From positions 1-46,378 of the forward strand of contig JAQTUZ010000011.1 in assembly GCA_028707065.1 (NCBI GenBank): a DNA stretch of 46,378 nt, in the 5' to 3' direction. The DNA is from Patescibacteria group bacterium. Its GTDB lineage: Bacteria; Patescibacteriota; Patescibacteriia; Patescibacteriales; WJLG01. Positions 2,720-19,436 of the stretch are shown piece by piece. The stretch's first letter is position 1. Every line of letters starts with the position of its first letter. The position numbers and the translations under genes are program-made. The notes below the pieces were generated by a model that saw only the letters and a list, made by a program, of their open reading frames with translations, made no database searches and had not been told where the DNA came from.

Positions 2720-3115
2720 ATGGTGCGCAACGTAGCCGTTATAATTCTTTTCGACAAAGATAAAAAAATATTGCTCCAGCATCATGCGGATAATTTAAGA
2801 TTGACGCCTGGCTATTGGGCATTTTTCGGCGGCCCGATCGAAGATGGAGAAACTCCGGAGCAAGCCGTAAAACGAGAGGCTCTGGAAGAATTAGAATACC
2901 CGCTTAGCAATCCAAAACTAATAATGAAGCAAAACTTTTTATCACACGGCGACAATAACGAAAAATATGTTTTTATGGAAGAGTATGATCTGAATAAAAA
3001 AATCACTTTGGGCGAAGGGCAAGATTTGGGCTGGTATGCTCTTCCTGAAGCAACCCAATTAAAAATTTTCGGCCACGATCTGGAAGTTCTCAAATACATT
3101 GCAAACAAATACTAA
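2720..3115 (+). CDS. Nudix hydrolase
   Basis: A 131-aa protein starting at ATG 2720; upstream in-frame codons lie in a palindromic repeat, so the longer frame from 2630 is rejected. The Nudix box is visible as GPIEDGE, then seven residues, then REALEELEY. It matches GX5EX7REUXEEXGU except that the last Gly is Glu. Nudix enzymes cleave nucleoside diphosphates linked to another group; the substrate cannot be read from the sequence. The gene is bracketed by two members of the same palindromic family and has neither a clear ribosome site nor an operon partner. Confidence 0.85.
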   Translation: MVRNVAVIILFDKDKKILLQHHADNLRLTPGYWAFFGGPIEDGETPEQAVKREALEELEYPLSNPKLIMKQNFLSHGDNNEKYVFMEEYDLNKKITLGEGQDLGWYALPEATQLKIFGHDLEVLKYIANKY

Positions 3116-14367: not shown

Positions 14368-17300
14368 TTATTTTAAAGCTAATAATTGTTCTTTAAGCTT
14401 ATCTAATTCAATCTGTGCTTTGGCCAATTTTTCCTTTTCGACGGCGACGACTTTTTCCGGCGCTTTGCCGATAAACTCTTGGTTGGATAATTTTCCCTGC
14501 AGAGCCGCGGCGAATTTTTCCAGACTGGCAATCTCTTTTTCCAAACGCGCTTTTTCCTTAGCCGCATCGACCGCGCCCAAAAGATAAATCTCAATTCCGC
14601 CGACCGTGGCATAGATCGCATTGGGGATTTTCTCTCCTTTGGCCAAGATTTTCAGATCACTGATCCCGGTGCGCAGACTCTTGATCAAAATTTCATTTTC
14701 CCTGATCAATTTCGCGTCCGATCCGGCATAAATGACCGCTTCGACTTTTTTGGCCGGCTCAACTTTATTTTCGGCGCGCGCGTTTCTGATCGCCATGATA
14801 ACTTCTTTGGCCAAATCAAAACTATTGCTGACTTCGAGTTCGTCAGTGCCAAGCATCGGCCAGGGCTCGACCATCAATAAAGAATCATTGAATTTTTTCC
14901 AGATCACTTCCGTGACGAACGGAGCAAAAGGATGCGCGAGTTTCAAGACTTTGCGTAAAATCTCCAGCAAGATGGCTTTATTATTTTCACCGTCTTCGAA
15001 TTTACTCGCTTCCAGATACCAATCAGCCAGATCATTCCAGACAAAATCGATCAATTTTTCACCGGCTTGGGAAAAAGAAAATGATTCAATATCCTTGGTG
15101 ATGGCGGCAACCGCGTCATTGATCCGATACGAGATCCAAATATCAGCGGTGGTTAAATTATTCACATCGACTTTTCGATTAAAATTTCCTTCTGCTCGGC
15201 TTAAAATATAACGGCTGACATTCCAAAGCTTATTCACAAAATTACGCTGTGCCTCGATCCTCTCCCAGGACATCCGCGAATTATTTCCCGGCGTGCTGCC
15301 AATTAATAAGGCCAGACGCAAAGAATCAGTACCGTATTTGGCAATCACGTCCAGCGGATCAATGCCATTACCTTTAGATTTAGACATTTTTTTGCCCTTG
15401 TCGTCCAAGATCATCCCGTGCAGATAAACATCGCTAAACGGCTTTTCGCCCAAAGCGTAATAAGACATCAGAATCATCCGCGAAACCCAGAGCGTCAAAA
15501 TTTCAAAGCCGGTTTCCAGCACGGCCGTTGGATGAAATTTGGCCAGATCGCCTGATTTTATCCCATCTTTATAAGTATCCGGCCAGCCTAAAGTCGAGAA
15601 GGTCCACATCCCTGACGAAAACCAAGTGTCCAGAGTATCTTCATCCTGAGTCCAAATGTCCTTTTGCAGTTCTTCCAAAATCTTTTGATTTTCTAATTCA
15701 TTGAAGTGCGAGGCGGCCTCGGGGACTTTTATCACTCTCGCGCCCAACAACCGAGCCAACTCTTCCTGATCTTCCAGCGGGACAGCATGATCAATCCCCG
15801 GCTGAAAGCAGACGATTTCGCCGACATTTTTTTTCACCTTGGCAAAATCAATCACCAGATTATCATAATTCTTTCGTCCCAGCTTAACGGGCGTTTTTAA
15901 GGCCGGGGAAATTAAAACTAATTTTTTTATTTTCAAATCATGCTCCTCGATCAGTTTCAGCGCGAGCGTGCCGCCACGGGAATGAGTCACCATCACGGTA
16001 TCCTCGTTAATTTTGGCGTTCTTTAAAACAAACTCAGCTTGTTTAAGACGATCGGGCTGGTCGATATTCGGAAGCACGTGCCAAAAATTATCCGGGCGAT
16101 TTAATTTACCGTTCAACCAGGCCAAAGGATCCTTACCAACTACCGATTGATATGAACCATGCAAAAAAACAAAATTGGTTTTATCTTCCGGCGCATTTTC
16201 CCCCACATAAACTTCTTCATTTTCGGGAATTTGGAATTTGGAATTTGGAATTTGGGAATTTTTTTTATACCAGGCGGGAATTCTATGGCCGTACCAGATC
16301 TGGCGCGAGACGCACCAATCATGCAGATTATACATCCAATTTTCATACTGGCCCCGGAATCTGTCGGGAGTAAATTTTATTTCTCCGCTGGTTGCCACGG
16401 CCAAGGCAACTTCTTTTAAAGATTCTCCGCCCAGCCGATCTAATTTTTTATCAACATCAACAAACCATTGCTTCGACGGAATCGGCTCGACTGAAGTATC
16501 GCAGCGATAGCATTGCGACAAATTATTAGTGATATCCTCTTCTTTTTCCAGTAAACCGGCTTCGCGCAAGCGCTCAACGATCTTTTCCCGGGCTTCCAAG
16601 GCGCGCAATCCGGAGTATTCGCCAAAACCCGGATGAATTTTCGCGTCCTCATCAATAACTTTGACCAGCGGCAATTCGTTTTTCTGCGCCATCTGCCAGT
16701 CAACCATCGAATGCGCCGGCGTCACGCCCAAAGCGCCCGTGCCAAAATCTTTTTCCACGCCCCGATCGGCGATAATTTTTATTTTTAAAGGCACACCGAC
16801 AAAATCAACTTCAAAAGTCTGCCCGATATATTTTTTATAGCGCTCATCGGACGGATTTGCCGCCACGGCCGTATCGCCCAATTTCGTTTCCGGCCTGGTC
16901 GTGGAAATCGCGATCGGGAAATCCTTGGAATATTTAAAAGTATATAATTTCGCCGTCTGCTCTTTATATTCGACTTCATCATCAGCCAAAGTCGATTGGC
17001 AGCGCGGACACCAATTGATCACCCGCTCGCCGCGATAGATCACGCCGTCATTATACATATCGATGAACATTTTCTTGACCGCCTTGCCGCGCTGTTCATC
17101 CAAAGTAAAGGCCAAGCGCGACCAATCCAAAGAAGCGCCCATTTTTTTGATCTGATTCAAAATAGTCTTCTGCGTCACTCCAGCAAATTTATTTACTTCG
17201 GCCAAAAAAGCCTCGCGCCCTAAATCGTGCCGCGTTTTTCCGGTTTCTTTGAATAATCTTTTTTCCACGACGTTTTGCGTGGCGATCGCCGCGTGATCCG

Positions 17301-19300: not shown

Positions 19301-19436
19301 TCCCGCCACATTTTTCAAGTTTTTTCTACCCTGGGTGCGTAGCTCAGTTGGTTAGAGCACGGCTCTTATAAAGCCGGGGTCGATGGTTCAACTCCATCCG
19401 CACCCACCAATTACTAATTTGAAAAATGTGGCGGGA
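19301..19436. repeat. 18-bp perfect inverted repeat flanking the inner tRNA
   Basis: TCCCGCCACATTTTTCAA (19301-19318) and its exact reverse complement (19419-19436) enclose the intact tRNA gene. The right end abuts the anticodon-loop remnant TAA of the broken outer copy. Confidence 0.9.
19333..19409 (+). tRNA. tRNA-Ile (anticodon UAU)
   Basis: A complete 77-nt cloverleaf with encoded CCA: acceptor GGGTGCG/CGCACCC, D-stem GCTC/GAGC, anticodon stem CGGCT/AGCCG with loop CTTATAA, T-stem GATGG/CCATC with loop TTCAACT. The anticodon read by position is TAT, which decodes AUA. Most bacteria instead use a CAU tRNA modified to lysidine by TilS, so this is a notable type. Confidence 0.92.

Follow-up and report, generated by a model that had tools for sequence, protein, structure and literature searches.

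The gene valS, lying in a 46,378-nucleotide stretch of Patescibacterial DNA (hereafter the window), encodes a valyl-tRNA synthetase (ValRS) of 1062 amino acids with a small serine hydrolase of the RBBP9/YdeN type inserted in its catalytic half, and judged by its residues this predicted hydrolase is catalytically complete. Comparison with related genomes revealed a recurrent architecture, in which the isoleucyl-, leucyl- and valyl-tRNA synthetases (IleRS, LeuRS and ValRS) of Patescibacteria host small catalytic domains. The relevant features of the window are listed below in the order in which they are read along the gene.

17556–14368, minus strand: valS, 1062-aa ValRS with hydrolase insert, stop codon included (NF004349; AlphaFold model)
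17391–17380, minus strand: HIGH motif, here HVGH (motif match)
16902–16885, minus strand: TTRPET, threonine-rich motif of the native CP1 editing domain, present (motif match)
16701–16699, minus strand: Asp286, native CP1 editing domain (invariant across the aligned ValRS)
16262–16222, minus strand: run of the 7-base tandem repeat AAATTCC, coding for the low-complexity linker NSQIPNSKFQIP immediately before the insert (sequence)
16182–15658, minus strand: RBBP9/YdeN-type serine hydrolase domain, approximately residues 459–633, about 175 aa (PF06821 and Foldseek)
16161–16159, minus strand: His466 in the N-terminal FLHG motif of the alpha/beta-hydrolase fold (FVFLHG at 462)
15981–15979, minus strand: putative catalytic Ser526 (THSRGG), Ser in 40/40 synthetase-embedded homologues
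15792–15790, minus strand: putative catalytic Asp589 (GIDHAVP), Asp in 34/40 synthetase-embedded homologues
15708–15706, minus strand: putative catalytic His617 (ASHFN), His in 40/40 synthetase-embedded homologues
15630–15613, minus strand: DTWFSS, residues 643–648, restart of the ValRS catalytic core (motif and alignment)
15390–15376, minus strand: KMSKS motif (motif match)

The product of valS scored 977.7 bits against the ValRS equivalog NF004349 (cut-off 704), with the match split into two stretches, and 894.3 against TIGR00422 (cut-off 612.1). Pfam matches to PF08264 and PF10458 correspond to the anticodon-binding domain and the C-terminal tRNA-binding arm. AlphaFold modelled the full-length protein with a pLDDT of 87 (lower, about 50–87, in the insert region), and the best PDB match of this model was ValRS from T. 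thermophilus (1gax, TM 0.85). In the predicted structure, the synthetase core thus keeps its normal form despite the insert. RIPAWY (residue 425) and DTWFSS (residue 643) are separated by a loop of 213 aa, compared to 36 aa in a relative of the same genus (G001) and 24–45 aa in most related genomes, which bears out the approximately 175 additional residues reported here by a first-pass annotation of the sequence. Among about 30 ValRS sequences from Gemmatimonadota, this loop measured 32–41 aa and contained no insert. In many bacteria, the loop forms a zinc knuckle.

The repeat run preceding the insert contains three overlapping exact AAATTCC matches, against a chance mean of 0.5 at up to two mismatches. 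Besides window positions 16222–16262, low-complexity peptides coded by repeats occupy the same ValRS loop at five further loci (L008, L016, L042, L137 and L148), and NSKFQIP, KLKVKSEKLK and KHENTKTQ are such peptides from several Patescibacteria. This suggests that repeats, too, may enter this loop.

In order to characterize the insert, its motifs, profile matches and predicted fold were compared with known hydrolases. The four motifs named in the first-pass annotation (FVFLHG, THSRGG, GIDHAVP and ASHFN) were all recovered at their places, and its statement that the triad spacing is close to that of RBBP9 proved accurate: Ser526, Asp589 and His617 are spaced by 63 and 28 residues, and S75, D138 and H165 of human RBBP9 by 63 and 27 (alignment with PDB 9fcr/2qs9). 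The insert alone matched the Pfam family Ser_hydrolase (PF06821) with 25.9 bits at a cut-off of 22; in the scan of the whole ValRS, the same family remained just below the cut-off (21.5 bits). AlphaFold predicted a hydrolase fold for the isolated insert, with a moderate pTM of 0.69 from an alignment of two sequences only. Foldseek searches of this model against the PDB returned RBBP9 in the top six ranks (first 7oex, E 3.7e-9), followed at rank 7 by YdeN from B. subtilis (1uxo, E 1.4e-7). The family assignment as well as the structural check proposed in the annotation therefore hold. All matches of the insert were to alpha/beta-hydrolase families, and no homology was found to the known editing folds CP1 and YbaK/ProXp. 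We also considered an intein or another self-splicing insert and rejected it, as neither the protein nor the insert matched an intein/Hint or homing-endonuclease family in Pfam.

The insert is missing from the ValRS of G001, as would be seen if it were an assembly artefact or a neutral, recent insertion. We regard this explanation as extremely improbable. The reading frame is open across both junctions, and the G+C content of the insert does not differ from that of the rest of valS. Moreover, a genome from the same order but a different family (G485) carries an equivalent insert with identical junctions, PPEDKTNFVFLHG before and IWTQDEDTLDTWFSSGM after it. Together with dozens of parallel synthetase inserts, this case rules out an assembly error as the source, unless one error is common to both assemblies; the survey of relatives suggested in the annotation thus argues against an assembly join. 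The inserts of the window and G485 share 60% identity, with a pS of 0.83 (saturated), a pN of 0.27 and a dN of 0.33, and the host ValRS segments of the same pair gave dN values of 0.36–0.54 (0.39 for the N-terminal half), so that the rate of the insert does not exceed that of the synthetase. At the sequence level, these values indicate purifying selection on the hydrolase insert. Considering the constrained dN and the near-invariant triad in 40 embedded members, neutral tolerance alone is insufficient as an explanation; of the options put forward in the annotation, selection is upheld and a domain that is simply tolerated is disfavoured. A comparable constraint was observed for a histidine phosphatase embedded in the IleRS of the window genome, which showed a dN/dS of 0.14 against G001 (host IleRS: 0.12).

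Next, we sampled 144 genomes of the class for LeuRS, IleRS and ValRS. Long sequences were retrieved, and those of their inserts that measured at least 60 aa were assigned to families with iterative profiles and with Pfam. Inserts of at least 100 aa were present in at least 42/136 LeuRS, 28/136 IleRS and 22/137 ValRS of the fetched loci; these are minimum counts, since the reading was confined to long frames. In a broader sample of the phylum, long ValRS were rarer, with 6/125 frames reaching 1000 aa. Based on Pfam, 135 inserts included 49 histidine phosphatases, 39 Ser_hydrolase domains and 25 Nudix domains, and more rarely Ham1-like (4), aminoglycoside-adenylyltransferase-like (4, PF10706; nucleotidyltransferase-like) and ASCH domains (2). 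Nearly all ValRS inserts fall within a single loop (profile positions 430–476), and the IleRS inserts occupy the homologous loop. LeuRS inserts were found at four sites, two of them within the CP1 editing domain and one immediately before TTRPDT.

The window genome itself combines three synthetases with three different hydrolases. In addition to the RBBP9-type domain in ValRS, its IleRS (L003:1-3009:-, contig C6) carries a complete histidine phosphatase after WASVLPIWEC (PF00300, E 1.4e-30), which is conserved in the same-genus relative, and its LeuRS (L004:1-2334:+, contig C2) has its CP1 editing domain interrupted by a Nudix domain (PF00293, E 4.6e-11). A free-standing Nudix gene in the window (2750–3109, plus strand) shows distant similarity (29%) to this LeuRS-embedded Nudix. 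The survey also contained synthetases with several inserts. A LeuRS frame of 1558 aa (L236:1476-6149:-) harbours four, namely a Ham1-like, a Nudix, an RBBP9-type and an unclassified domain of about 183 aa, the last of which is present in L268 as well. Tandem inserts in the one ValRS loop consist of two histidine phosphatases (L318), an RBBP9-type domain and a histidine phosphatase (L322), an RBBP9-type domain and a Nudix (L317), or an ASCH domain and a histidine phosphatase (L149), and unclassified inserts of 66–90 aa were observed at this loop in L033, L069 and L155. Elsewhere in the window, a tRNA-Ile gene with the anticodon TAT (19333–19409) adjoins tRNA-Val(GAC), and a partial duplicate of the 3' part of tRNA-Ile lies between the two. 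This anticodon is unusual in bacteria, where AUA is usually read by a lysidine-modified CAU.

Catalytic residues were retained almost throughout: both catalytic His and the second Arg are present in 49/49 histidine phosphatase inserts, and the strict Nudix box is kept in 23/25 Nudix inserts. These data bear on the idea that the inserts are structural or regulatory elements, which stabilise the synthetase or contact the tRNA and whose hydrolase activity is a leftover. The position of the insert, taking the place of the zinc-knuckle loop, would fit such a role, as would the occurrence at the same site of ASCH domains (a PUA-like, RNA-associated fold) and of several unclassified 66–90 aa inserts. 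A scaffold would, however, have no need of catalytic residues, which are near-invariant in three unrelated families, and we therefore consider this explanation improbable.

The pairing of domains and hosts was non-random. IleRS carried 27 histidine phosphatases and no RBBP9-type domain among 29 inserts, and LeuRS, the commonest host of RBBP9-type inserts, carried 38 of these and 24 Nudix domains but no histidine phosphatase among 73 inserts. In ValRS, we counted 22 histidine phosphatases (one in tandem with ASCH), six further ASCH domains and two RBBP9-type domains. The statement in the annotation that no such ValRS was known accordingly has to be widened: at least four more Patescibacterial ValRS carry the same family at the same site (L037 and G485, and in tandem G205 with a Nudix and G415 with a histidine phosphatase), and in roughly 20 others this site holds a histidine phosphatase. 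Large proteins with RBBP9-type domains are almost confined to these hosts. A PF06821 scan of frames above 600 aa in the 144 genomes assigned 23/26 to LeuRS (22) or ValRS (1), the other three being unidentified, and in a phylum-wide scan of frames above 850 aa, all 24 were LeuRS (21) or ValRS (3). Likewise, histidine phosphatases resembling that of the IleRS were found exclusively in IleRS or ValRS (23/23) among large frames.

A phylogeny of 62 domains placed the window domain within a LeuRS-embedded clade (support 96–97/90). Recent capture of a free-standing hydrolase was rejected, as grouping the window insert with free-standing RBBP9s gave an AU p value of 0.003, to be read with caution given its long branch (1.66). 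Due to this branch, the exact sister of the window domain is unsure; a sister relationship with the L037 insert, which enters ValRS at the same residue, was neither supported nor rejected (AU test, p = 0.15).

Studies on related enzymes offer a view on the potential function of the domain. Human RBBP9 is a serine aminopeptidase that requires a free alpha-amine and removes hydrophobic residues; in work with a trapping mutant, Leu/Ile, Phe, Tyr and Trp were captured, and the bond cleaved may, according to its authors, be an amide, an ester or a thioester (PMC8866121). Human BPHL, a serine hydrolase sharing this fold, hydrolyses homocysteine thiolactone efficiently (PMC4198189), and homocysteine is edited by Ile-, Leu- and ValRS (PMC5370406). 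From this chemistry we derive a working model of an aminoacyl (thio)ester or amide hydrolase acting in cis, which might serve as an auxiliary enzyme for small molecules that branched-chain synthetases make or meet; we put this forward as a possibility somewhat short of probable. The likeliest substrates of the RBBP9-type domain would be aminoacyl compounds of small hydrophobic amino acids, bound as ester, thioester or amide; candidates are a wrongly made aminoacyl-adenylate or aminoacyl-tRNA, or homocysteine thiolactone released through editing by Ile-, Leu- and ValRS. By analogy, activity on mischarged aminoacyl-tRNA is chemically plausible, since RBBP9 takes hydrophobic amino acids with a free alpha-amine. 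Embedding would couple the amount and location of the hydrolase to the synthetase.

This cis-acting role is supported by the near-invariant triad, purifying selection, the strong host specificity and the placement of the window domain in the LeuRS clade, as well as by the catalytic residues kept in the histidine phosphatase and Nudix inserts. Several observations speak against it. The residues that hold the amine in human RBBP9 are not evidently kept in our reading of the alignment: Arg527 stands opposite Ser76 and an Ala opposite Tyr99, and no Glu is evident opposite Glu108, where the alignment is weak. Nucleotidyltransferase-like and ASCH inserts are not obvious proofreading enzymes, and a Pfam scan found two free-standing Ser_hydrolase genes in the window genome, both on contig C8. 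The insert is lacking from the majority of related genomes, among them one from the same genus, so its activity must be dispensable or otherwise supplied. A substitution for a lost editing domain was ruled out, because the native CP1 editing motifs are present.

The distribution of the inserts also points to considerable mobility. The ValRS phylogeny requires at least 25 changes in insert state. The LeuRS Nudix of the window genome is 78% identical to that of the distant G065, compared to 50–70% for most of LeuRS, and is missing from the LeuRS of G001, so that single domains can move independently. Import by a long recombination tract was not seen, given that the flanks of the ValRS insert follow G001. 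Such frequent gain, loss and swapping is what one would anticipate if the insert were a housekeeping enzyme that could well be parked in the synthetase, with a metabolic job unrelated to aminoacylation, in a loop that tolerates insertion and an essential gene that secures its expression and guards against its loss as the genome shrinks. The same loops are filled by small enzymes from several unrelated families, and loops at the same site also accept repeat-coded junk (KHENTKTQ and NSKFQIP runs). On the other hand, parked enzymes should hit other long essential proteins as well, in contrast to the near confinement of the large-protein RBBP9-type domains to LeuRS and ValRS, the restriction of the histidine phosphatases to IleRS and ValRS, and the non-random pairing. 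The host specificity favours coupling and the variety of inserted enzymes favours parking, and we judge the two explanations to be about equally likely.

Enzymes of the Ile-, Leu- and ValRS type are targeted by natural antibiotics. The inserts could therefore also protect their host synthetase by destroying inhibitors, such as aminoacyl-adenylate mimics or nucleotide and ester antibiotics, from neighbouring or host bacteria. Phosphatase, Nudix, adenylyltransferase-like (four inserts, PF10706) and serine hydrolase are typical inactivating chemistries, and patchy gain and loss is compatible with an arms race. No inhibitor or ecological link is known, the same domain types recur in numerous families across the phylum, and each host is dominated by one or two domain families, which makes self-protection unlikely.

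Comparing our results to known systems, the ValRS insert matches RBBP9/YdeN (PF06821) in fold, Ser-Asp-His triad, spacing and size, but the solved members of this family are single-domain proteins and the window domain sits in a tRNA synthetase. The closest precedent in a reduced genome is the MetRS of Mycoplasma penetrans, to which an aminotransferase with a role for the host synthetase is appended (PMC7694997). As in the window ValRS, a class I synthetase is joined there to a metabolic enzyme, albeit a different one, which forms an N-terminal appendage in one lineage and not an insertion in the catalytic half. The CP1 domains of Ile-, Leu- and ValRS as well as the trans-editing proteins YbaK and ProXp-ala are likewise hydrolytic and inserted in or acting with synthetases, yet their folds are unrelated to that of the insert, and the window ValRS still has its own CP1 motifs. 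NF040702 (IleRS with an N-acetyltransferase) also describes a catalytic domain on a class Ia synthetase, from a different enzyme family. The BEAN/HABAS insertions of RNA polymerase (PMC11515920) are similarly recurrent and polyphyletic at defined sites of an essential enzyme; unlike these, the synthetase inserts are known enzymes with intact catalytic residues. Appended or added synthetase domains are thus already known. Among open-licence PMC papers, we found no report of hydrolase insertions in Patescibacterial Ile-, Leu- or ValRS, nor of intact, unrelated hydrolases recurrently inserted in the catalytic or editing modules of these enzymes, and their recurrent insertion appears to be new.

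Overall, these findings caution against dismissing long Patescibacterial synthetases as assembly errors, and they provide natural examples of large domain insertions borne inside an essential enzyme, with a use in protein engineering. Our tentative view, advanced with reserve, is that the branched-chain synthetases of Patescibacteria may act as exchangeable hosts for a few hydrolases (RBBP9-type, histidine phosphatase, Nudix and Ham1-like), with modules gained and lost, and exchanged both among genomes and across the two hosts LeuRS and ValRS, and that, taken together, these might give translation a second level of hydrolytic quality control or clean-up. It has now become a testable question whether such quality control is added in cis in reduced genomes, or whether other enzymes are sheltered there in essential genes.
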